DNA from: Salvator merianae
Taxonomy: Eukaryota > Chordata > Lepidosauria > Squamata > Teiidae
Reading direction: 5' to 3'
NCBI GenBank assembly: GCA_003586115.2
Contig: QVOM02000070.1
Span: 1,508,189-1,572,188, forward strand
DNA: 64,000 nucleotides
Below, one piece after another: positions 4,832-59,544 of the stretch (position 1 is its first letter; every line of letters begins with the position of its first letter). A model generated the notes under the pieces. It ran no database searches, had not been told where the DNA came from, and saw nothing but the letters and a program-made list of their open reading frames with translations. The position numbers were made by a program, and so were the translations under genes.

Positions 4832-4969
4832 GGCTCTTTCTGCACTGGGCCTTATTCTGGATGGTATCCGGGAATAGGGACCTGCCATCCACATTCTGGT
4901 TTAGACTACAGCAGACCCCAATCCTATTCCAGGATATAATCTGGAATAAGGCCCAGTGCAGAAAGGGCC
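4832..4969. mobile_element. Family C hairpin element (MITE-like), 138 bp
   Basis: This is an almost complete foldback. The left arm reads GGCTCTTTCTGCACTGGGCC, then TTATTCTGGATGGTATCC. The right arm carries the complement, ending GGCCCAGTGCAGAAAGGGCC. The loop contains CCACATTCTGGTTTAGACTA. It lies in the presumed 3' UTR region of CD22 and has no coding capacity. Confidence 0.7.
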
Positions 4970-14645: not shown

Positions 14646-15059
14646 GTTCTTGAGGGGTTTAGTTATAACTTTCCTCTCCTTCAATCTACAATTTGCTAAT
14701 TTGGGTCCTTAAATGCTGTTGCACTATAGCTGCTGTCATCTCTACCCATTTGTTATGACGACTTTGAATTATGGGAATTGTAGTTTTCTTCTCTCCCTGT
14801 CTGGATATAAATGTAATAGCACACAAAACACAGAGGTCCATATCTGCTTTCCAGATGTTTCTTTCCCCTGATCAAGCCAGGTGTATTCAAAAGCTCTATG
14901 TATCATTAACAATTTACACTGATGCATGGGTTTCCGGAGGTTTATGGCTTTATTGCTTTGGTTCATGGTCTCGCACACTGAACAATCTCTTATGGCCCAT
15001 TTCACCCTAAGAGCTGTTTTCTCCATGCATCCAACCACTGCTGCTCTCACACAAAGTTG

Positions 15060-15077
15060 CTTCGTCCTAAACTTCAG
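15060..15077 (+). other. Possible 3' splice site upstream of the FFAR1 start
   Basis: CTTCGTCCTAAACTTCAG followed by G is a moderate acceptor. It could close an intron from a non-coding 5' exon, which FFAR genes commonly have. An out-of-frame ATG near 15089 would then lie in the leader. A donor-like AACAG|GTAGGC at about 15122-15131 is too close to the start to be used with a visible acceptor. Confidence 0.25.
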
Positions 15078-15188
15078 GCATCCCCAGTATGGCTTGGAGA
15101 ACTTACTGTACGGACGAGGGAAACAGGTAGGCAAGCAACAATAAAACCCAAATGTCTTTGCTTGAACATGCTCTCTGTTCCTGATGCT

Positions 15189-16136
15189 ATGGAAGCCTGT
15201 AAGACCATCTCTTTGGTTGTCTATGGAGCTACCATCTTTTTGGGACTGCCTGCCAATGCTATGGCCCTCTATGTCTTCTACTGCCATGCCAAGACTCGTC
15301 TAACTCCCAACCTCATCTACATGATCAATCTTTGCCTCTCAGACTTGGTATTTGTGCTTTTTCTTCCCCTCAAGATGTTGGAGATGGGCCAAGTGGACTG
15401 GGGCATGCCTGCTTTCCTTTGCCCTCTTTACAACCTGTTCCATTTTGGCACCATCTATACCAGTGCCTGTTTCCTGACTGTTGTCAGTGTGGGACGTTTC
15501 TTGGGGGCTGTATATCCAATCCGCTATCAGGTGTACAAGAAGCCTCTCTACTCATGCCTTATCTCCTTTGGAATATGGAGCTTGGTAGGATTCCATGGCC
15601 TCCTCCTCTTTTTATTGGAGAACTCCAGGGACACCAGTTCCAGTCTCTTTGCTGGGAATGGCACCTCTTGTTATACTAACTTCACCAAAGATCAGCTGTA
15701 CTTACTGGCACCTGTGCGGCTAGAGCTGTCTGTTGTGCTGTTCTTCCTCCCACTGGCAATCACCTCTTTCTGCTACGTGGGCTGCATCCGTGTCCTGGTC
15801 AGCTCACACCTCCACATACGGAAGAAGCGCCGTGCAGTGCGGGTGGCAGTGGCAACGCTTGCTGTCTTCATCTTCTGCTTTGCACCCTACAATATATCCC
15901 ACGTTGTGGGCTACATCTACATGGAGGATGTCTGGTGGAGAACCATAGCTCTGCTTCCAAGCGCGTGCAATGCTTTCCTGGACCCGTTTATCTTCTACTT
16001 CCTCTCCTCTGCCATGGATGATGGGATTGCCCAAGTGTGGCGCTCCTTAAGGGAGAAGTGTACCTCCATTCGACTGAAGATAGCCTCATCCTATGGAAAA
16101 GGATGTAGCCAACAAGGAATATCTGGCATTGCGTGA
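15189..16136 (+). CDS. FFAR1: Free fatty acid receptor 1 (GPR40)
   Basis: Gq-coupled plasma-membrane receptor for medium- and long-chain fatty acids; 315 residues, intronless CDS (human 300). Seven hydrophobic segments are visible. TM5 reads FFLPLAITSFCYVGC, almost identical to human FFAR1. The TM3 end is GRF (102-104), corresponding to the FFAR1-specific GRY in place of DRY. The paired cysteines are C78 and C161. R177 and R251 correspond to human R183 and R258, which bind the carboxylate; Y234 and N235 match Y240 and N241. Position 6.55 is H238, where mammalian FFAR1 has N244. Sequons are N157-GT and N164-FT. The frame is open upstream to 15057. I chose the ATG at 15189 because it gives 23 residues up to the GLPAN motif, exactly as in human, and has G at -3 and +4; an in-frame ATG at 15168 would add seven residues. 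It lies about 11 kb after CD22 on the same strand, as in mammals. Confidence 0.9.
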   Translation: MEACKTISLVVYGATIFLGLPANAMALYVFYCHAKTRLTPNLIYMINLCLSDLVFVLFLPLKMLEMGQVDWGMPAFLCPLYNLFHFGTIYTSACFLTVVSVGRFLGAVYPIRYQVYKKPLYSCLISFGIWSLVGFHGLLLFLLENSRDTSSSLFAGNGTSCYTNFTKDQLYLLAPVRLELSVVLFFLPLAITSFCYVGCIRVLVSSHLHIRKKRRAVRVAVATLAVFIFCFAPYNISHVVGYIYMEDVWWRTIALLPSACNAFLDPFIFYFLSSAMDDGIAQVWRSLREKCTSIRLKIASSYGKGCSQQGISGIA

Positions 16137-19544: not shown

Positions 19545-20160
19545 TGATTCTGTACTGACTGGTATACCAGACCAGCAAGCATACTTGGAGCCTCCCTTCT
19601 GAACACTGGTATGATCTAAGAGAAGTCCCACCTGGACCTCCCTTAGACTGTACCAGACCTTTCTGCACTTTTGTACCCCAGTATAGTGTGGTGCACGGTC
19701 CTCTTCTGGGCCTCTGTTTTCCACACATTGGTGCAGAACAGAGAGGCCCTATCCCCTGCTAGACCACTCCATCTGCGTTGGATGGAGTGTATACTGGACT
19801 AGGCAGCCCAAAATGCCCAACTAGTCTGGTATAGTGGTAGTCCAGTAGTCTACTCATGAGTAAATTGCTCCATGGATGCTTGCAGAATGGTGTATGTCTC
19901 TGTGGTCTGGTTTAGCAGGGAAATCTATTAGGGTTGTGCACCAAATTGTGCCCTGAAATGGGTCCCCTGGGAACTTCAATTCCTGGCCATTGGAATCCTC
20001 ATATTCCAATGAGTGGAGTGGGGGTGGACCCAGAATAGCTGTCCCATGTGTGCATGGCCTTTTCTGGGACAGTTGGATTGCTCCAGCTGGGAACTGTTTC
20101 ACTAGGAATGGACCAGCTGGAGTGGTCTAAGCCCTGGTAAGTGTGGAAGCAGCCAAAGGC
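19545..20160. mobile_element. Family B-like DNA element(s)
   Basis: It contains the blocks GTATACCAGACCAGCAAGCA, TGATCTAAGAGAAGTCC and CCTGGGAACTTCAATTCCTGG, which recur in other family B copies, and an internal TTTCTGCAC terminus near 19660, suggesting two overlapping copies. Limits are uncertain. Confidence 0.35.
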
Positions 20161-21143: not shown

Positions 21144-21470
21144 GAAGAAGAAGAAGAAGAAGAAGAAGAAGAAGAAGAAGAAGAAGAAGAAGAAGAAGAA
21201 GAAGAAGAAGAAGAAGAAGAAGAAGAAGAAGAAGAAGAGTTGGTTTTTACACCCCGCTTTTCTCACCTGAGGGGACTCAAAGCAGCTGACAAACCTTCTG
21301 TTCTTCTCCCCACAACTGACACCCTGTGAGGTAGGTGGGGCTGTGAGAACTCAGAGCAGAGCTGTGACGAGCCCAAGGTCACCCAGTGGGATTCACGCAG
21401 AGTGCAGACTCGAACCGGGAGAGTTCCAGATAAGAGTTTGACACACTAACCACAAGGCCAAACTGGCTCA
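21144..21470 (-). mobile_element. tRNA-derived SINE with expanded (CTT)n tail
   Basis: Read on the minus strand: a tRNA-like head TGAGCCAGTTTGGCC, an A box near TTGTGGTTAGTGTG, a B box GGTTCGAGTC, a core GGGTGACCTTGGGCTCGTCA, and the end AAAAACCAACTCTTCTTCTT. The tail has grown into a pure 95-bp CTT array (plus-strand AAG, 21144-21239). I recognise the body as a widespread squamate SINE type. The frames encoding poly-Glu or poly-Phe here are the tail. Confidence 0.75.
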
Positions 21471-29637: not shown

Positions 29638-30660
29638 TCAGGAATCAGTTGTGCCCGATCTTTGTTGAGTTGCCAAGGCATTGGGGTTGCTAGCTTCTGT
29701 CCGTCCATTTTGTAGATTTAACCCCCCTGCTGAGCCAGCTCCTGCTTCTGCGACATTGTTTCCACAAACAGCACAAAGTTTGTGGTACATACCAAGCCAA
29801 CAGTCTCGAAAGATTCGCCGGAAGGTGGTGGAGGAGAAGTAGAAGATGACCGGGTCCAGAACAGTGTTGAGGGTGGTGAGTGTGAAGGTGATCTCTCTCC
29901 AGGAAGGGCTTTTTTCCTGAATGTATCCCGCAATGTGGGAGATATTATAGGGTGCAAAAGCAATGGCAAAATTGAGCACGGTGGCCACCGCCAGGCCCAC
30001 GGCCCTTTTCTTCTTATGGGGTGGGATGTTCGGCATTGTAGTCAAGCGGTAGATCACGCTGATGTAACAGAAGAGGGTAATGAGTAAAGGCAGGCAGAAG
30101 AGGACGATGCACAGTTCCAGTCGGAAAGGCAGTAGGATTTTCAGCTGATCCTTAGAGAACTCCACATAACACGTGTCTTTATGGAATGAAGCAGTTACAT
30201 TGTGGTACTCCACAGCGTAGACGATGCTGCCGCAGTGGGCACAGGCCAAAAACAGGAAGAAAACACTAGCTATGATGGTATAGGTTGGCTTACGGTTTAG
30301 TTTGTACTTGACAGGGAAGGCAATACAGAGGTAGCGCTCCACACTGATCCCCATGAGGAAGAGAGTGCTGAGATAGATGCTGCTGTAGAAGAAGAAGTTG
30401 GTGAGGGGGCAGAGAAACTTAGGGAGAGGTTCAGGCCATGTCATGTTGGATGCAGCTTCCACTATCTTGAAGATCAGGAAGAACAGGAGGAGGAGGTCAG
30501 ACACGGTCAAGCTGAACAAAAGGATGTCTGTGGGAGTTGGCTTCTGGCGCACTTTCTTCAAGAACGCATAACAAGCCACAAGGTTGAAAGGGAGGCCAAC
30601 CAGGAAGCAGATGATATACACAGTGAGTACATATTCAATATCCTTGACTTTCCCCTCCAT
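29638..30660 (-). CDS. FFAR2: Free fatty acid receptor 2-like (GPR43-like), proximal copy
   Basis: Class A GPCR of 340 residues, predicted receptor for short-chain fatty acids. FFAR2 hallmarks: FYSSIYLSTLFLMGISVERY around TM3 with ERY at 108-110, then AFPVKYKL; RLELCIVLF in TM5; RAVGLAVAT entering TM6; APYNISH in TM6. Ligand-site residues R180, H242 and R255 fall at the same numbers as in human FFAR2, and H142 aligns with H140. The disulphide pair is C84-C164. Sequons are N72-MT and N154-VT. ECL2 reads CYVEFSKDQL, closer to FFAR3 (CYLEFRKDQL) than to FFAR2, so V166 replaces human E166. The C-terminal tail is Gly/Ala/Asn-rich and poorly conserved. The CDS is a single exon. It shares orientation with the copy at 56071-57090 and is opposite to FFAR1. 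FFAR3 orthology is less likely because most of the TM core matches FFAR2. Confidence 0.88.
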   Translation of the reverse strand: MEGKVKDIEYVLTVYIICFLVGLPFNLVACYAFLKKVRQKPTPTDILLFSLTVSDLLLLFFLIFKIVEAASNMTWPEPLPKFLCPLTNFFFYSSIYLSTLFLMGISVERYLCIAFPVKYKLNRKPTYTIIASVFFLFLACAHCGSIVYAVEYHNVTASFHKDTCYVEFSKDQLKILLPFRLELCIVLFCLPLLITLFCYISVIYRLTTMPNIPPHKKKRAVGLAVATVLNFAIAFAPYNISHIAGYIQEKSPSWREITFTLTTLNTVLDPVIFYFSSTTFRRIFRDCWLGMYHKLCAVCGNNVAEAGAGSAGGLNLQNGRTEASNPNALATQQRSGTTDS

Positions 30661-30662
30661 TT

Positions 30663-30682
30663 CTGAAAAAAGAAACCAAAAA
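30663..30682 (-). other. Splice acceptor 2 nt before the FFAR2-like ATG
   Basis: Read on the minus strand: GGTTTCTTTTTTCAG, then AA, then ATG. The pyrimidine-rich tract and CAG make a strong 3' splice site, so the transcript should begin in a non-coding exon at a higher coordinate. That exon and its promoter cannot be placed by eye. Confidence 0.7.
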
Positions 30683-30757
30683 CAGAGAGGTTATTAGATA
30701 AAAAGGAAATTAGAAGAGGTGCCTCTTATCTCAAAAACAAGGTCTAGTAGCACCTTA

Positions 30758-40070: not shown

Positions 40071-42116
40071 ACAAGTTCAAAACTAGATAGAATGAATGCA
40101 CCTTTCTGCCCTTGCCAGAAATCCAGACCAAGAAGTGTTCCATGGGTTTCCTTTCCACATGCTGTTGTGCCTTAAGGAAGGCCCGGCACCCTCCTAATGC
40201 CCCCCATGTACACAGGATGGAGCATAGGCTGGATGAGAGTGCCAAAAATGGTGTCTGGGTCTGGTCTATTGTTGGACCTCTTTTTGGAGGTCTACCAGCA
40301 TAGTCATGAAGACAGCATGTCTCCATGAACTGGTATACTGTGGGGACCTACTTTTGTGTTGCAACAAAGTGTGGTGTGAACCCCCCCCCCCCGAGAGCTC
40401 TGAAGGGTTTCAATATTCAGAGTGAGATGGTGCTGGCACAGAACTCTTCTGTAAAAATAAAAGAAAATACATTAAATGTACATTACAGGTGGTATATGTA
40501 CTTTCTCATATTTTGAAATTTTTTTCATCGTTATGTTGGTATGGACGTGAAGAAACCAGCTCTTGCTGTCATCTATGGTGCTCTTATCCCAAAATTAATG
40601 GGAAAAAGTGGAGAACAAGATAAATCAAAATAACAAGAAGCTCAGTTATACTTATTCCAGCACTCTGTTTCTGTAATCTTTTTCCTGGACAACATACAAG
40701 TCTTCCATACAAGGAGCTTTTCGAATTCTTCTTAGCAGCAGCTAAATTATTAATCGTGCAGTAGATCACAAAAGATCACAAGAAATTGTCTTAGATACGT
40801 GGTATGATAAAATATGGGATTTTACCATCAACAAATTCCTTACTTGGAGACTTAGGAAAATGAGTAACCCAAGATGTCGGATTCCTTCAAAAACAGATGG
40901 ACTCAGTTGCTGATTGCTCTGCCAAACTTACTACCATCAAACTGGCCTGATCCCAAAGGGATGAGTTGGTGGTTTGAACAATATATCTGTACTTGAATTA
41001 ATGCTAATGGAATGAGGTTTAATGTTTCAGTATTTCTATTGAACACATGGAATATTGTTATGTTTGCATTGCTGTTCATGTTATTTATCTGAAAATAGAT
41101 AGAAGAGTGAGGGAATAAAGAAGAACAGACCATCCCAATGCAGGTGGCCTTGTTTGGCACCAGAAGTAAACTGTTCCAGTTTGGGATGGATTGCTTATCC
41201 TGAACCAGGGCATCTTACTCTGGTTTGGTCTACAGGAGGCAGGTGTGAATTCAATTTGACGTTGCACTAGGCACTATCTCCCTCTAGTGGAAGAGTGAAG
41301 CTATCAGATTCTACATTGTTTCTACCATTTAGCAGACTGAACCCAGCAAAGGTCACATTCCCTTGTGGGCTGGATTCAACTGGGGTCCAGGATGGGAGAT
41401 GCAAGTTATATGTGAGCAGGTTCCGGGTTGAGGGCTGTGGTCAGTGCATGCTATTAACCTTAACACAGCTGCTGCTCCTCAACAGGAAGTATTTGCAAGG
41501 ATAAATCTTTCTCACAGCTGCACTGTTTTTTTGCCGGTTGGTCTCCCGTGAATGAAAAGGGCCAGCTTCCTGGCATGCTTCTGGTCTGTTGGAGAACTCT
41601 TCAGTATGGAAATGGAAGCAGGTAAGTTACACCTTTACCCTGCATATCTCCACCTGGTAGGGATAGGTGATCTAAACTGCCCCAAATTAATTGCTTGTCA
41701 CTTCAGGTGGTGGGAGGGGGTGGGACCATATAGATGCCCCACCCCTGGGTGGGTTGAGAGGATGCCCTGGACATCCATGTGGATGCATCCTAAGTTGATA
41801 GATCTTCAGAAATGAGGAACAATTACTCCCAATTAGTGTCCTCTGGAACTGATTAAAATGATTAGCTTTGTGGAATTGTCCCTCTATCAAAACTGTTGTC
41901 CCTCTGCCAAAACTCACATCTTCTGAATATCTCAAAATGATTTTTTAAGTATATACTGTACACATCGTTATTATTTAAATACTAGAATATGTACATCAAA
42001 AAATATCAACATCAATAGCAGTAACAACACAGAGAAAATCAACAAGGTTACTATGGAACATTATGGGAACTGAGCCAGAATGGCAGAGGGTGATATTTTG
42101 GTGGAGTAAGGTCCGA

Positions 42117-42405
42117 GGATGATGGTGCATAAATTGGGAATGGATGCCAGGTGGGGTAGAAGGATGACTCATCAGTTTGTCCCTAGAGATCTCAGATCTG
42201 GGCATTGATACAGTCCCATGTTGCTATTTTTAATGAATAATTTTGCCAAATAAATATTTGGATTGGTGTACTTAGGCAAAATTATTCATTAAAAATAGCA
42301 ACATGGGATTGTATCAATGCCCAGATCTGAGATCTCCAGGGACAAACTGATGAGTCATCCTTCTACCCCACCTGGCATCCATTCCCAATTTATGCACCAT
42401 CATCC
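42117..42405. repeat. Near-perfect palindrome: 131-bp arms, 27-bp spacer
   Basis: The left arm 42117-42247 and right arm 42275-42405 are reverse complements with two mismatches that I can find (CCCTAGAG/CCCTGGAG and CAGTCCC/CAATCCC). The spacer 42248-42274 is AT-rich. No coding content. Confidence 0.85.
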
Positions 42406-42523
42406 TTGGGAAATGGCTTCCACTTCCACTCACCCAGTGTCGTAGCTACTGTTGTGCTATGGGGTGTGTATGAAAACTAGACAGGTTCATTTTTCACAAT
42501 TTGTCCATTTGTCTCAAAGCCTC

Positions 42524-43880
42524 TGTAGCCATCAGATGTTACCAAACACCTGAATGTGTAGCTCTGCCATAACAGGAGCACATATAATATACAAATTGTA
42601 GCCATCGTTTACCCAGAATGCATAGCCTTGCCATGCAGAAGCAGGAGCACCGACATTCTTACTATATACAAATGGACATGGATCCCATGAAATATAAATC
42701 AGAAAGATTTCAAATACAGGGAAACTGACCAGAATGCTACAATCTCGGACCCTGCAGAATTGCTTGCATCCATTTTAAAAAGGAAAAAGCTGTCTTCAAA
42801 AGTACCAGCATTTTCCCTTCAGCTCTTGAAGAAGCTCAGGAAATTATGCTTTAATGGTTAACAAAAGATTGGGCAAGTATCTGGCCATCAAATAGTCCTA
42901 TTGTTCAAGCCTACATCTTGAGAACTTCTCATTAAGAATGTAAACAGCACAATTTAAGCTCATCAACCAGTGTAGTTATCTGTTTATCTCTCTACGTGAC
43001 CAAACACGCATCTTTGCCCAACTAAAAGGAAGCTTGTTCCTTTTTCTGCTTGGGAAAAATAATATAAAAAGTTCAGGTTTTTCTACTAGGAAGAAGAGAG
43101 GAAGAAGAAGAAAAGAGAAGAAACATTATAGGGAAGACTGATCATCTATCTCAGCCCCATTTTCCCTGGCTGAGAGCTGTTTTTACCTTCCTCCTGAAAT
43201 GGGGAGGGAACAGATTTTTTGAAGGAGCTGCTTGATCCTACTGCTTGCTTGCAGTTTCCTTTTTTTTTTTTTCCTTTTTAGCTGATTTCACTTGATGAGG
43301 GATTTCTATATCTCTCTCCATGCCCCTTGGCAAAAGAGCTGGTTTTTTCCCCCGAAAGGAGTAAGGGTTGTGGAGTCTCTTCTACTTCCTATTCTCTGAT
43401 TTTTAACCCATTTTTCTTGCAAGAGACCTATGCATCTTTTCCCCCAAATTTTCCTTTTTGGAATGATGAAGATTTACCTGGAGAATGTTTCTAGTCTCCA
43501 TTGCTAGCTTTTTCCAGACTCTCTCTCTCCCCCACCCCCCTTCTCCCCCTTTTACACAAACTAACTAGGTCTCCTTACTTAGTTTGGAGCCAAGCCTTTT
43601 TCTTTTCCTTTTCTAAATGCCAAACTACCTATGCTACCTATGAAACTGGCTGATTCTAACAAGTTACATTGTTTATTGCTATTTCTTTGGATTTCAATCT
43701 TTTTGCTGGGTTCTAATAAAGATGCACCATTATTTCCAAGGATTACCTCCTCTTTCTTTGCATTTTCTGAGTCAGTTTATCGTTATTAAAACCAGCCCTG
43801 AAAAATTGATCCCTAAAAAGGTTTAGTGCCTGGGGGGCTAATTTTCCCAAAACATTTTCCCCAGAGCATGGCCTGTAACA
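42524..43880 (+). mobile_element. Solo LTR of an endogenous retrovirus-like element (empty hAT site)
   Basis: 1357 bp starting TGTAGCCATC and ending TGTAACA. It is flanked by a 4-bp CCTC duplication (42520-42523, 43881-43884). A TATA-like AATATAAAAA lies at 43071-43080 and AATAAA at 43715-43720, the U3-R-U5 order. Its sister lies at 49162-51006. No internal viral genes adjoin it, so it is a solo LTR. The 4-bp duplication suits a gammaretrovirus/ERV1-type integrase. At 43244-43251 it carries a single CTTGCTTG, the site that is occupied in the sister copy. Confidence 0.8.
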
Positions 43881-44344
43881 CCTCTGAACCTTCTGAAAGT
43901 CAAAATGGACAAGGTTCTAATTGGTGCAATTGGATATTTTAACAGGGTTTTCAAACACAGTGGGATGTCATGGCAAACAGAGTTGGCATTGGAAGTTGTG
44001 TGGCTCAATGTAGAGTCATAGTCGTAAGAAGTTGAATTCAACTTGAGAACAGTTTTACCTGTCATAATATGCAGAGCTTTGTTTTCCTGTTATCTTAACA
44101 TGATTTCTTCTTCTTCCTCTCCTCCTCCTCCTTCCAGCTGCCTCCCACCATTTCAACACTTTCATTGAACCAACTACCACTGCACCATAGCTGAGATCCC
44201 ATTAATGCACTTTTTTCAGTTCCTGCCATCTTGATGCCTCATCCTCCAGTGTGCAGACATGGGAGGGTCATTTCCTTTCAAACAAATCAGTCTAACTTTA
44301 TGTTTTCCAAAACCTTTTTGATGTCCTGGCTGAAGCGTGACAAT

Positions 44345-44524
44345 GGGCCTTTCTGCACTTGGCTTTATTCTGGACTATATCCCAGAATAGGGACCTGCTA
44401 TCCACACACTAGTGCAGATTATAGCAGGCCCCAAGTGGGGCCTGCCATAGTTGATAGTAACATACAGATGGCAGATCCCTATTCCAAGATATAACCTGGA
44501 ATAAGGCCAAGTGCAGAAAGGACC
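44345..44524. mobile_element. Family C hairpin element, 180 bp
   Basis: The left end GGGCCTTTCTGCACTTGGC and right end GCCAAGTGCAGAAAGGACC are inverted repeats extending through TTATTCTGGACTATATCC. The apex contains AGGCCCCAAGTGGGGCCT. It is the longer relative of 4832-4969. Confidence 0.7.
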
Positions 44525-45349
44525 TTTGATGTCCCCTGCAGTTGCTGTGAGTGGGCAGAACAGAGCCTCTCTGTGCCTGTCAAATCATTGTGAACAAAGG
44601 GCACCTACCTTAGTAACATGTGTTTCAAATTATTTTGGTTGCATCCATGTGACCTAAAATGGCCACTATAGGGTCAATTGGGGGTAGGGTGGCAGCACAT
44701 TCCCACACAAGTTTCAGAAGCCTTCTGTCCGAGTGGTGATGGCCAAGTCGGCATGGGATTGGCTTCTGCACATTACATCACCTTGATGCCATCTCTACAC
44801 CAGACTGGCCACAGAAATTGCCAAACCAATTAACCTAGTCATAGAAAAAGCTGTAAAAAAAAAAAGCCCAGGTATATCTGATGTTTGGCAGATTTTCTAC
44901 AGCTTTTGGCAGCCCTGCTCTGCACCAGAGTTTTAGGCATCATGCAGTGTATGTGACCTGACTTCTGCATCCATTTCTGGTCTCTACCTGGCCTCCTAAG
45001 CCAGAGAATTCACATTGTAAAAGTTCTAGGTCTACTTCAAAACTTCAGCTGTTTGGCCGTGTCTTCCCATTAAGAAAGTGTACAAATTTGTATGTTTGCT
45101 TTGCCGCCGACACAAAACCCCGTTTGTTTTGTCATTGAACCATTTAATCAAAAAAACAGTTTCTTACATTCATTTTAGCACTTTTTTGCAAAGAAAAAAA
45201 AAATCATTTTTTCCATTAAAAAAGTCCTTTTCCTAGATAAAATTGCAGAGAAGCATGAATGTTTGATCAAATTGTTCATTTTTACAAGCAGAACACTTGT
45301 TCGATTTGACTGAAGTTTTGGAAATCCCAAGAACCACATTTTCATTTTG

Positions 45350-47375: not shown

Positions 47376-48115
47376 AATTGTATAAAGCTTTCAGAGAGAG
47401 CTGGGATGGTGGGTCAAAGGCTCTTACAGTCTTGTGCCTCTACAGTCATTCACCAAAGAGTGAACGGCCTTTTGGTACAACTCCAGTGACCTTGCTTCCC
47501 CTCTGTCTACTGACTGCAGCTATCTGAGATGACAGTTGAAGGGGAGAGACTTGCTCCTGGAGGGCAGATGGCGTGGCATTGCTTACCCTCTGTCTTGCTT
47601 CTATAGCTAGAGCTGCCTTTGCAAAGCTTGTGTCCTCCAAATATTTTGGAGTACAATTTCTATCACTGCCAGTACAAATATGTTAGCTAGAGTTCATAGG
47701 AATTGTAATCTAAAACATCAGGGACACTGCCATACCCCACATTCCTTTGCTGCATCCTTACTGTACCACCGATTCTTAAAAGGGCAAAGCATCTTAAATC
47801 GGTCCTATTTATTTCTTCATTTCCTCTGTAACTATGGGATCGTGTAAATCACACCACTCCCCTTTCTTCTAAGAGCAAGCCAGGGGCGTGCCTTATATCC
47901 TCGAGCCACTTCACTTTGAAACCCACCTAGGAAAAATAATTAAGGGATGGACTAATGTGTGCAAACCACTCCTTTAAAATGAATAACATCAGCCTAGAGG
48001 TGTGTAGAGCGCTATTCCAACTAGTTCAGTACAGCTGCACCCACTCCTAAGCATTGTTTGCTCAGCTAATTCATCCTGTATGAAAAACAAAGTAAACAGC
48101 GGCAGCCTGTTGCCT

Positions 48116-48266
48116 TAAGGGTGGGTGTTTGGAACCCGCAGGAAGGGGGCGATTGCTGTTATCGGGGCCTCCAGGCCTCCGTACTGCTGCTGCAACAGTA
48201 CAAAGGCCTGGAGGTCCCACGAACAGTGATTGCCCCCTTCCTGCAGGTTCCAAACACCCGCCCTTA
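48116..48266. repeat. GC-rich inverted repeat: 70-bp arms, 11-bp loop
   Basis: The left arm 48116-48185 (TAAGGGTGGGTGTTTGGAAC...) pairs with the right arm 48197-48266 with about ten mismatches, around the loop GCTGCTGCAAC. It is CpG-richer than its surroundings. It may be the core of a MITE, but I see no outer termini or target duplication. Confidence 0.7.
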
Positions 48267-48607
48267 CAGTGACGGGCCGCGGCTGGAAGCAAAATGGTGT
48301 CCGCTCACACACAGAGAAAACACTGTTGGTGAAAGATCCTCATCAGTGTCTGGACATCATGGCCACATAATTTCAACAACAGAACTCAACCATCTGCCAT
48401 ATACTAGGTGTTTCTAGCAATATCTAGGTTGGGTTACCTACTCATCATCAGCAATCATTTTTGATCCGCTACGGAATGAAAGCCTCCTCAAGCTTCTTCC
48501 GTCATTCCCAGTCCTTGGCAGTTCTTCTCCTGAATTTACTGGCATGCTTTTAATTTCATCCATCCATTTTTCACAGGGGCGGGTCTTTGGTCCTTTCTGG
48601 TCCCTTT

Positions 48608-49161: not shown

Positions 49162-51006
49162 TGTAGCCATCAGTTACCCAGAATTGTAGCCCTGCCATAA
49201 AAAGAGCACATAACTATATACAGATTGACATGTATTCCATGAAATATAATGATAGGTTTCAAATACAGGGAAACTGATCAGGATCCTGGACCCTGTAGAA
49301 TTGCTTGCTGTCTGCAAAATGTACCAACATTTCCCCTTCAGCTCTTGAAGAAGCTCAGGAAATTACACGTTAATGGTTAACCAAAGACTGGTCAAGTATC
49401 TAGTCCTATTGTTCAAACCTACATCTTGAGAACTTCCCATTAAGAATGCAAACAGCACAATTTAAGCTCATCAAACGGTGTAGTTGTCTGTTTATCTCTC
49501 TACGTGACCAAACACACTTCTTTGCTCAACTAAAAGGAATTTTGCTCCTTTTTCTACTTGGAAAAGGAATATAAACATTCAGGTTTTTCTATTAGGAATT
49601 AGAGAGGAAGGAGAAGAAACATTAGAGAGCAGAAGAAACATTAGAGAGAGAGCGAAGAAGATGAAGAAACACACAAGAAGTCAGGAAGAACGATAATCTA
49701 TCTCAGCCCCATTTTCCCTGGCTGAGAGCTGCTTTTACCTCCCTCCCGAAATGGAGAGGGAACAGATTTTTTGAAGGAGCTGCTTGATCCTACTGCTTGC
49801 TTGTAGGGATGTGCACGAAGCCACTTTCCCCTCTTTGCTTTGCAGTGTGCGCGCTGACAGACTGGGGGGGGGGGAATGAGAGAGAGCGCGATCGGAAAGA
49901 GAGAAATCAAGGCGAAGGGAAGACCTTCGCCTTGATTTCTCTCTTTCCGGTCGTGCAGCGCTCTCTCATTCCCCCCCCCCTAGTCTGTCAGTGTGCGCGC
50001 TGACAGACATGGGGGGGAATGAGAGACAGCGATCGGAAATGGAGAAAAATCAATGCCGAATCCGATCGCTAAAGTTAAGTGCTGCCTGTCACAGAGGCAG
50101 CACTACTTTAGCGATCGGATTCAGCATTGCTTTTCTGACGTTTCCGATCGGTCTCCCTCTTTTAGGCTGCGTGAAGCTTCTACGCTCCGATGCAGGAGCT
50201 TCTCGTGGCCAAAAACAGGGAGCTCGCGGCAAATGGCGAAGGTCTCGAAGGTCGCCGGGACCTTCGCCATTCGCATTCGCGAGCCCCTTTTGTCTTTGCA
50301 TTTCGCGCGAAGATGGTGGAAACGCCATCTTTGCGCGAAATTCGAAGTGCACGAAGCTTCGTGCACATCCCTACTTGCTTGCAGTTTCCTTTATTTTCCT
50401 TTTTGAGCTGATTTCACTTAAAGAGGAATTCCATATCTCTCTCCATGCCCCTTGGCAAAAGAGCTGTTTTTTTTCTAAAGGAGTAAGGGGTGCCTCTGCC
50501 TCTTCCCATTCTCTGATTTTTAACCCATTTTTGCCTGCAAGAAACCTATGCATCTTTCCCCCCAAATTTCCCTTTTTGGCATGATGAAGATTTACCTGGA
50601 GAAGACTACAGATGGGTGAGATTTACCCTTAAGCTTCTCCCAGACTCTCTCTCTTTCTTCCCCCCCCTTCTCCCCCTTTTACACACACTAAATAGGTCTC
50701 CTTACTTAGTTTGGAGCCAAGCCTTTTTCTTTTCCTTTTCCAAATGCCAAACTACCTATGCTACCTATGAAACTGGCTGATTCTAACAAATTACATTGTT
50801 TATTGCTATTTCTTTGGATTTCAATCTTTTTCCTGGGTTCTAATAAAGATGCACCGTTCTTTTCAAGGACTACCTCCTCTTTATTTGCATTTTCTGAGTC
50901 AGTTTAGTGTCATTAAAACCTGCCCTGAAAAATTGATTCCTCAAAAAGTTTAGTGCCTGGGACACTAATCTCCCCAAAACATTTCCCCCAGAGCACGGTT
51001 GTAACA
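49162..51006 (+). mobile_element. Solo LTR interrupted by a hAT-like insertion
   Basis: Sister of 42524-43880. It starts TGTAGCCATC, ends TGTAACA and is flanked by CTTG (49158-49161, 51007-51010). Without the 570-bp insertion and its 8-bp duplication it is about 1267 bp. TATAAA lies near 49570-49575 and AATAAA at 50842-50847. The two LTRs have different target duplications, so they are independent integrations rather than a segmental duplication. Confidence 0.8.
49804..50373. mobile_element. hAT-like foldback element with four tandem hairpins
   Basis: 570 bp with termini TAGGGATGTGCACGAAGC and its exact inverse, flanked by an 8-bp CTTGCTTG duplication (49796-49803, 50374-50381). 8-bp duplications and TAGGG termini fit the hAT superfamily. 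Inside are four consecutive hairpins at about 49854-49990, 50030-50150, 50218-50286 and 50300-50343, then a perfect 20-bp palindrome at 50348-50367. It is much richer in CpG and GATCG motifs than the host LTR. Frames of up to 197 codons across it are by-products of the hairpins. No transposase is encoded, so it would need a factor supplied in trans. Confidence 0.85.
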
Positions 51007-56070: not shown

Positions 56071-57090
56071 TCAGTCTTCTGAGCTTTTCTTACAAACAAT
56101 GGAGTTGCCTCCCGTTGCCAAACTATTTGGGAGATTTGAAGCAGATAGGTTCCCTACTTCATCTTTTGCTTTAGAAGTCTCATAGCAATGGAGACATCTT
56201 GGGGATACAATAACTGGGAATCTGCAGCCCAGGGAAGGATGGCAAGTAACAAAGGTCCGTTGGATGGTTGTGGTGGAGAAGAAGAAGATGATAGGATCCA
56301 AGGTGGTGTTGAGGGAGGTAAGGAAGAAGGTCTCCACTCTCCAGGAAGGACTCTGTTTCTCAAAAAATCCCACAATGTGAGATATATTGTAGGGTGCAAA
56401 GGCAATGACAAAGTTGAGCAGGGTGACCACTGCTAGACCCACTGCCCGTTGCTTTCTGTGGGAAGGGATGTTGGGCATGGAGGTGAGGATCCAGACCACG
56501 TTGACGTAGCAGAAGCAGGTGATGATGAAAGGGAGGCAGAAGAGCACGAGGCAGATTTCGAGCCGCAATGGAAGGAGGATGTGCAGCTGGCTAAGAGAAA
56601 ATGTCTCGAAGCATGTGGAAAAGTTGTCAACCTTCACAGAGGTGGTGTTGTGGTATTCAACCACATAGATGACAGTGGCACAGTGAGAGCAGGTGAGCAG
56701 CCAGAAGAAAACGCTAGCCAAGATTGCATAGAGTGGCTTGCGATGCAACTTGTACTTGACAGGAAAGGCAACGCAGAGGTAGCGCTCCACACTGATGCCC
56801 ATGAGGAAGAGTGTGCTGAGATAGATGCTGCTGTAGAAGCAGAAGTTGGTGAGGGGGCAAAGGAAGGCAGGGAGAGGCCACGTCATGTCCAGGGCAACCT
56901 CCATCATCTTGAAGGGCAGAAAAAGCAGGCAGAGGAGGTCAGACACGGTCAAGTTGAGCAAAAGGATGTCCATGGTGGTTGGCTTCTGGGACATTTTCCT
57001 CAGAAAGGCAGAACAGGCCAAGAGGTTGGAAGGAAGACCAGCCAGGAAGCAGAAGGTATATACTGCAAGAGCAACAGTTTTCACGACCAT
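56071..57090 (-). CDS. FFAR2: Free fatty acid receptor 2-like (GPR43-like), distal copy
   Basis: Class A GPCR of 339 residues, paralogous to the copy at 29638-30660, with near-identical stretches such as FYSSIYLSTLFLMGISVERY. ERY lies at 102-104. The ligand residues H136, R176, H238 and R251 correspond to human FFAR2 H140, R180, H242 and R255. The disulphide pair is C78-C160, and sequons are N148-TT and N156-FS. TM6 enters with RAVGLAVVTLLNF, identical to human FFAR2 over that stretch. ECL2 differs from the other copy: CFETFSLSQL keeps a Glu next to the aromatic residue, as in human FFAR2 (CYENF). TM2 contains DILLLNLTVSDLL, resembling FFAR3. The cytoplasmic tail is Cys- and Ser-rich (CLHCYETSKAK) and unrelated to that of the other copy. 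No frameshift or premature stop is present, so both copies look functional. Assignment to FFAR2 rather than FFAR3 is from motif comparison, not a tree. Confidence 0.88.
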   Translation of the reverse strand: MVVKTVALAVYTFCFLAGLPSNLLACSAFLRKMSQKPTTMDILLLNLTVSDLLCLLFLPFKMMEVALDMTWPLPAFLCPLTNFCFYSSIYLSTLFLMGISVERYLCVAFPVKYKLHRKPLYAILASVFFWLLTCSHCATVIYVVEYHNTTSVKVDNFSTCFETFSLSQLHILLPLRLEICLVLFCLPFIITCFCYVNVVWILTSMPNIPSHRKQRAVGLAVVTLLNFVIAFAPYNISHIVGFFEKQSPSWRVETFFLTSLNTTLDPIIFFFSTTTIQRTFVTCHPSLGCRFPVIVSPRCLHCYETSKAKDEVGNLSASNLPNSLATGGNSIVCKKSSED

Positions 57091-57101
57091 CTTCCTCAGG
57101 T

Positions 57102-57121
57102 CTATAAAGAAAGGAATAAAG
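57102..57121 (-). other. Splice acceptor 10 nt before the distal FFAR2-like ATG
   Basis: On the minus strand TTTATTCCTTTCTTTATAG precedes ACCTGAGGAAG-ATG. As in the proximal copy, the CDS exon seems to start just before the ATG, implying a spliced non-coding leader further right. This is consistent with duplication of the gene together with its 5' intron boundary. Confidence 0.65.
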
Positions 57122-57344
57122 AATGATACATTAAATAGACCACCAGTAGCTCTCTTTCTATACTAGTGTGATGTAAGAGCCATTGCATTAGAGCAATCCA
57201 TTTCTGCTGATGGTGAAAAGGCATTGACTGTGTTTTCTGGTGTGCTGCCAAACCTATTGGCTGTTTTTGTGCTTCTGTTTTACCAGAGAAAAGTGTAGTG
57301 ACTGCTCAGTCTCTTTTCTTTCCATGGCAAGTTCCCACTATACC

Positions 57345-58083: not shown

Positions 58084-58591
58084 TTTGTGTTCTCATCCCA
58101 GCTCTAATCCTTGTTTGCTAGCCTAGAATGTCCATAAGAGGGAACAGGGGCAGACAGTGAGCCATCTCTCTTTCTGTAAGCTACTGATCCTATCCATGCC
58201 TTCCTGTGATCCAGATCAGTGGGCTGTGCTAATCCAGAACCACTGATCTGAATCATTATCAGGTAAGTGCACAAAGGGCCAAAGACTTCCAGTGCTAAAA
58301 ACTTTGAGCTACTTCTAGAACCAGTGACAATAAAGCCAATATATGCGAACAAAACAAAATAAAAGCCTAGCACTTTCCATTAATAGCTGTAAGTGATACA
58401 TTTACCACCAGAATTCAGTCCAGTTCAGAAATGTAGCCATTTTTTTTTTTTTGCTCACACCATCGCTACAAGAAAACTGTCCCGAGAGCTACTATAACTG
58501 TATTCAAGCACTACACTTATTTTACTCAGACTGTGAATATTTATATCTTATCACTGAATTTTTTCATCTGTAGTTTGGGGTTTGAACGATA

Positions 58592-58965
58592 CAGGATGTT
58601 TCAAAAAGATGGACCTAATTTCAAAGTAGTAGATAGTATTTCACGATGGCAACATGTTATAATTACACAAAAAGTTACAAACGATTTAATGAGTGATCAA
58701 GTTTTACTAACCATTTTATAAATACTCGATGTGCCCTCCACCTGCAGTACGGACAACATCGAGGCGGTAGTTCAGTTCATCCCAAATGCCTCTCAAAGTG
58801 TTTTCTTCCACTGAAGTTACCGCTGCCATGATTCTGGTTTTGAGGTCTTCCAGATTTGAAACTCTACGCCTCGCCCTTTCAAGTGGTAAGAGTTTCATTC
58901 ATGGGGGTTCGTGGTTGCAGAGATTTAGCAATTTCAAACCGAGTCCATCTTTTTCAAAGATCCTG
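58592..58965 (-). mobile_element. Internally deleted Tc1/mariner-type element
   Basis: 374 bp between TA dinucleotides (58590-58591, 58966-58967). The termini CAGGATGTTTCAAAAAGATG and, inverted, CAGGATCTTTGAAAAAGATG differ at two of 20 positions. On the minus strand 58716-58898 encodes RVSNLEDLKTRIMAAVTS, then LRGIWDELNYRLDVVRTAGG and GHIEYL-stop, the usual C-terminus of an IS630/Tc1-type transposase family common in arthropods (x-RLDVCRxxxGxHIE-x). The catalytic domain and DNA-binding N-terminus are missing, so the copy cannot move itself. Confidence 0.75.
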
Positions 58966-59544
58966 TACATTAATTTGTTAGTGCATTTACTGTAGGTGTT
59001 ATGTTAATATTTCTTGGAGAACAGAGCATATCAATTCATGCTGTACTTCTGAAAACCTTACTTGTATTCCTAATACTGACTGTCGCTGCTTGATCCCTAT
59101 GGAGAAGAGGAACTCCAGTCTTTCAGAGGTGATTTAGTGGTCAGCTAGAAGTCTGCTGTCCAGAAGCAAAGCAAGATTCACTCGCAGAGCAAATTAAAAC
59201 CATGTCTCCAGAAGCAAACCTTGAAGCTTCTGTCTAATATAGGAAATATTGTGGGCTGCTGTGGTTTCGTGGAGGAAGTGAGGATAGAGCTGATTCCTTA
59301 AAACTGAAAAAGGCGATTTCATCAAACTGAGAGTAAATTACCTGGAAATTGTGCAAAAAGAAACAAGATATAAACTGTGATAACTGTACAGAAAAAAACG
59401 TTTCTTTTTGTTTAACAAAAAAAGAGCATTCAGCTTTTGAACATACGTGTTTTTCTTTTCTTCCCACATTAGTTTGGGAAACCTTCTTTTTTACCCACTT
59501 TGGAGAACAGGCTCTCTTTATCTTCAAATCGGAATTGAAGCTAT

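Follow-up and report, generated by a model that had tools for sequence, protein, structure and literature searches.

The window analysed here, the whole 64-kb stretch of DNA, contains a 570-bp element (49804-50373) that has perfect inverted termini, is flanked by an 8-bp duplication, lies in a solo LTR whose sister copy provides a paralogous empty site, and folds into five hairpins, the two largest of which reuse the same unit. We consider it likely that this is a non-autonomous hAT-like element mobilised in trans, inserted recently into an old solo LTR, with an interior that arose by fold-back template switching. On present evidence this is a DNA transposon of the non-autonomous type, young and well preserved, for which a paralogous empty site exists. 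It clearly exemplifies a type already known and is ordinary in that respect; what is unusual about it is the completeness with which serial hairpins make it up. Its extent agrees with the original prediction, as does its description as a hAT-like element in a solo LTR, which draws its support from the termini, the 8-bp target duplication and the empty site in the paralogous LTR, and not from a transposase or a second copy.

Table 1. Positions of the element's parts, its host LTR and the sister LTR within the window.
Feature	Position	Strand	Remarks
Host solo LTR (570-bp insert included)	49162-51006	+	CTTG/CTTG flanks, TG...CA ends, aligned to sister LTR
Sister solo LTR without insert	42524-43880	+	CCTC/CCTC flanks, TG...CA ends, alignment
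Paralogous empty site, single CTTGCTTG	43244-43251	.	Sister LTR
Left target-site duplication CTTGCTTG	49796-49803	.	
Left terminal inverted repeat, 18 bp	49804-49821	+	Perfect match to right end
Hairpin H1	49826-50019	+	90 pairs, apical loop 5; units A1 (49843-49918), A1' (from 49924), runs into A2
Hairpin H2	50023-50155	+	57 pairs, apical loop 7; unit A2 (from 49989) and partial A2'
Hairpin H3	50160-50215	+	22 pairs, apical loop 6; weakest
Hairpin H4	50217-50288	+	29 pairs, apical loop 8
Hairpin H5	50289-50355	+	29 pairs, apical loop 4
Perfect 20-bp palindrome GTGCACGAAGCTTCGTGCAC	50347-50366	.	Extra inverted copy of inner terminal repeat, right end
Right terminal inverted repeat, 18 bp	50356-50373	-	Perfect match to left end
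Right target-site duplication CTTGCTTG	50374-50381	.	

Target site and host LTRs

Both ends of the element carry TAGGGATGTGCACGAAGC without a mismatch, and the duplication CTTGCTTG flanks it on both sides, as had been predicted. Alignment of the two LTRs revealed that the sister LTR has a lone CTTGCTTG, around which it otherwise matches the host LTR of the element. This site had been taken for the pre-insertion sequence; it does hold the single copy, but it belongs to a paralogous LTR and is neither the pre-insertion allele nor the ancestral locus. A TA-target (mariner-type) reading was rejected, the sister site having no TA there. Regarding the length of the duplication, CTTGCTTG is (CTTG)2, and the figure of 8 bp hinges on the sister LTR holding two CTTG units; 8 bp appears to be the simpler reading, as a 4-bp duplication would need the loss of a unit in the sister LTR.

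The solo nature of the host LTR was supported. Since each of the two copies has its own 4-bp duplication in addition to TG...CA ends, both look solo, and a reading of them as the LTR pair of a single provirus was ruled out by the distinct duplications (CCTC vs CTTG). Aligned with some flanking sequence included, the two copies have 1145 matches and 150 mismatches and are therefore both old. Two similar sequences, about 70 bp from each other, could each serve as the start of the sister LTR, and one of them was chosen. A local duplication (42524-42600) has doubled this start, TGTAGCCATC occurring at 42524 and again near 42594, about 70 bp further on.

Superfamily assignment

Target-site duplications of the Ac family have the pattern nTnnnnAn; CTTGCTTG, a single site, has T at position 2 and T, not A, at position 7. 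The consensus for hAT termini is YARNG, and the TAGGG at both ends of the element fits this start, which argues against placing it in a different terminal-repeat superfamily that duplicates 8 bp, such as P, Merlin or a Mutator-like one, or reading it as an element that duplicated 4 bp within a (CTTG)n tract, an alternative that we regard as unlikely. The two CTTG units in the sister LTR speak against the 4-bp version, and of six ungapped Buster1 terminal sequences given in PMC4298943, five have CAGGG. The alternative gains from the absence of any transposase linking the element to hAT, from the composition of CTTGCTTG as two CTTG units and from the occurrence of 8-bp duplications outside hAT, as in Galileo of the P superfamily, which duplicates 7-8 bp (PMC4168063).

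Regarding the preferred assignment to hAT, CTTGCTTG is present twice at the element and once in the sister LTR, the 8-bp length being subject to its (CTTG)2 structure, and the perfect 18-bp inverted repeats lie within the 5-27 bp given for hAT elements in the pertinent passage of PMC3517528. The same passage gives nnnTAnnn as the duplication pattern of the Buster family, which differs from CTTGCTTG, one site only, in that its centre is GC. The element is short and non-coding like a MITE, having 570 bp and no transposase, and none of 248 candidate proteins matched, at E 0.01, the one reading frame that runs through 49880-50371. That it works like a hAT MITE is well supported: a MITE-like, non-autonomous DNA element would be moved by cut-and-paste transposition in trans, through a transposase supplied from another source that would recognise the TAGGGATGTGCAC termini, with insertion duplicating 8 bp.

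Among known systems, Mar, a hAT MITE of Drosophila willistoni, is likewise non-coding and about 600 bp long (610 bp in Mar), with short terminal repeats and an 8-bp duplication, whereas it differs in being AT-rich, in its 11-bp terminal repeats starting with CAG and in the Buster site nnnTAnnn; the passages on Mar in PMC3517528 do not mention a hairpin array. The non-autonomous Buster1 and Buster2 hAT elements of invertebrates and bats are similarly short (246-908 bp) and have mostly CAGGG termini, differing from the present element in the first base (C vs T) and in the inner part of the terminus, and serial hairpins are not mentioned in the portion of PMC4298943 that describes them. Galileo/Foldback-like elements resemble it as inverted-repeat-rich DNA elements with 7-8 bp duplications, and gap repair with template switching has been invoked for their structure; however, Galileo, as portrayed in the relevant part of PMC4168063, belongs to the P superfamily and has long terminal repeats, whereas the element found here has an internal series of hairpins between short termini.

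Copies and relatives

A scan of the 64-kb window for YANNG termini flanked by exact 8-bp duplications, which allowed elements of 80-4000 bp and up to 3 mismatches in 14 terminal positions, had the element as its sole candidate. It was also the only hit when pairs of near-matching 12-mer termini (no more than 4 mismatches) were sought in the window together with a near-exact duplication of 8 bp. No second copy of the element was found in the window. A terminus with two mismatches at 19929 was discarded, having no convincing partner there.

Outside the window, the 16-mer terminus had two exact matches in viral contigs and the 18-mer terminus had one in bacterial and archaeal genome contigs, on a Streptomyces contig. 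Near-match partners of the terminus in these three contigs were about 8 kb apart in one (L002) and in the same orientation in the other two; with no second terminus making such an element, all three matches were taken as chance. No match to the 27-mer right end exists in the viral contigs, and a distant search of phages and a protein search were also negative; these viral, bacterial/archaeal, phage and protein absences say little, because none of these is an animal-genome collection. In a text search of the literature the terminus string TAGGGATGTGCAC was not found, shorter strings gave no transposon paper by title among the matches listed, and no paper was found that combined 'multiple hairpins' with MITE. 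A paper on turtle hAT elements (PMC11008031) contains, in its excerpted text, hAT definitions and no matching terminus.

Hairpin structure and folding

The original prediction had four consecutive hairpins; the minimum-energy fold gives five, inside a closing stem of 18 bp, with 245 pairs involving 490 of the 570 bases. The predicted 20-bp palindrome is present and overlaps the last of these hairpins, and the 5' arm of H2 contains a further inverted repeat (50028-50037/50061-50070). The RNA fold of the element has an energy of -419.4 kcal/mol against a shuffle mean of -206.05 (sd 6.96; z -30.65), and the DNA fold has a z of -29.75; 0 of 100 shuffles were as low in either case. When the window was cut into 112 consecutive 570-nt pieces, the best fold was that of the piece from 49591 (-320.0), followed by -253.8, the mean being -166.6. 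Exact inverted-repeat centres (arms of at least 9, spacer of at most 70) number 10 in the element, whereas 300 sequences from a first-order Markov model had 0.18 on average and never more than 2. At the right end, the extra inverted terminal motif (50347-50356) may be a product of the same template switching that is proposed below for the interior; as a matter of speculation, it is also a putative second transposase binding site.

Nested insertion of separate palindromic elements, one into another, could in principle give such a series, and several other palindromic repeats do occur elsewhere in the window. It is nevertheless very unlikely: flanking direct repeats of 4-9 bp were absent for all five hairpins under eight choices of boundary, on which ground this origin was rejected, H1 and H2 have unit A in common, and none of the hairpins has a further copy in the window.

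A function in RNA had been offered as another reason for the hairpins; in such a reading, selection would keep the same element as a small-RNA or miRNA-like precursor read from the + strand. Both strands were folded, the check asked for with the original prediction, and the better fold is that of the + strand (-419.4 vs -372.1 for the - strand); among 221 aligned arm columns, stem mismatches are G.T in 14 cases and A.C in 3 (binomial p 0.013). However, a single alternating TGTGCGCG repeat, which pairs with itself, accounts for 4 of the 14 G.T cells; without these the ratio is 10 to 3 (p 0.092), and seven control inverted repeats in the window have G.T:A.C ratios of 2:1, 9:7, 8:7, 10:2, 4:6, 4:0 and 0:0, so that the skew is not special, given the 10:2 (and 4:0) among them. 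Rfam gave no match at gathering score anywhere in the window. The proposal that the hairpins are kept for an RNA function thus did not hold up, as the G.U excess loses significance without one repeat and a control repeat has such an excess too, and we judge this explanation distinctly improbable.

Origin of the hairpins

Repeated template switching, the other origin put forward in the original prediction, is supported by the order of units in H1 and H2 and by the distribution of variants between their arms, and is not proven. The two hairpins reuse unit A in the order A1-A1'-A2-partial A2', and the first 20 nt of A1 and A2 are identical (CAGTGTGCGCGCTGACAGAC). At the junction with the start of CAGTGTGCGCGCTGACAGAC, A1' ends in CAG, a 3-nt microhomology that, taken alone, is weak.

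In the 45 columns common to all four units, there are 41 matches between A1 and A1', 35 between A1 and A2, 34 between A2 and A2', 34 between A1' and A2, and 27 each for A2' with A1 and with A1'. Six columns divide the units two against two as A1=A1' vs A2=A2', grouping arms by hairpin, and none supports either other grouping; H1 and H2 therefore differ by matched changes on both arms. In total matches A2 and A2' (34) are no closer than A1 and A2 (35), which leaves some doubt about the order of the units and is a point against a simple fold-back story. Serial fold-back copying with later repair of the arms would explain the unit pattern economically, and duplication of a hairpin followed by arm repair is an equal variant of it.

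Under serial fold-back copying, the growth of the interior would go back to an ancestor, in which template switches by fold-back occurred repeatedly while DNA was replicated or a gap repaired: A would have been copied and folded back to give A', re-priming on A would have given A2, and a second fold-back would have followed, and events of this kind would later have matched the arms of each hairpin to each other. PMC8794818 describes stems created and mended by template switching; there, hairpins of RNA genes likewise arise as reverse-complement copies off the nascent or complementary strand with arm repair; those hairpins are single stems in RNA genes, and the words transposon and transposable are absent from the excerpted text of that paper.

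A broader and tentative proposal, for which we would claim only a modest chance, is that a hAT-like family grows by serial fold-back template switching, that its stems are kept matched in the same way and that its copies record when each hairpin was added, the extra terminal motif possibly strengthening transposase binding. Should the number of hairpins vary among copies in the host genome, the family would provide dates for one fold-back event after another, and such copies would test whether template switching or selection keeps the arms matched.

Base composition and age

As predicted, the interior is CpG-rich (46 CpG, GC 0.549) within an AT-richer LTR (GC 0.398). The CpG observed/expected ratio of the element is 1.07, with TG at 0.94 and CA at 0.89, compared with CpG ratios of 0.16 and 0.14 in the two LTRs and 0.72 in the highest other 570-bp stretch of the window. 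The high CpG ratio, together with the perfect termini and the perfect duplication, would fit a rather recent insertion, into an already old solo LTR, of an element with stems that had diverged beforehand. High CpG could instead come from an unmethylated or CpG-rich source rather than from youth.

Other features of the window

The next CpG-richest stretch of the window (CpG observed/expected 0.74) is a 378-bp element at 58590-58967 with TACAGGATGTTTCAAAAAGAT-like inverted ends, which may be mariner-like. Just upstream of the sister LTR lies a near-perfect palindrome of 297 bp (42113-42409), with 138-bp arms that are 97% complementary, a 21-nt spacer and a CpG ratio of 0.08. A further inverted repeat at 48097-48285 (GC 0.62, CpG ratio 0.54) has 94-bp arms that are 80% complementary and a 1-nt spacer, and members of another repeat family, whose inverted ends are GGCC/TTTCTGCACTGGGCCTTATTC-like, lie at 1874-1924, 2448-2498, 4832-4969 and 44341-44528.

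A perfect GAA repeat of 31.7 copies was detected at 21144-21238. Regarding coding potential, the window looks vertebrate: three of the ten reading frames scanned, from 27 listed, are long frames that match rhodopsin-like receptors (14982-16136 on the + strand, 29638-30690 and 56071-57162 on the - strand), which suggests a putative receptor gene cluster; among solved structures, those nearest to the frame at 29638-30690, the one for which this comparison was made, are free fatty acid receptors 2 and 3.
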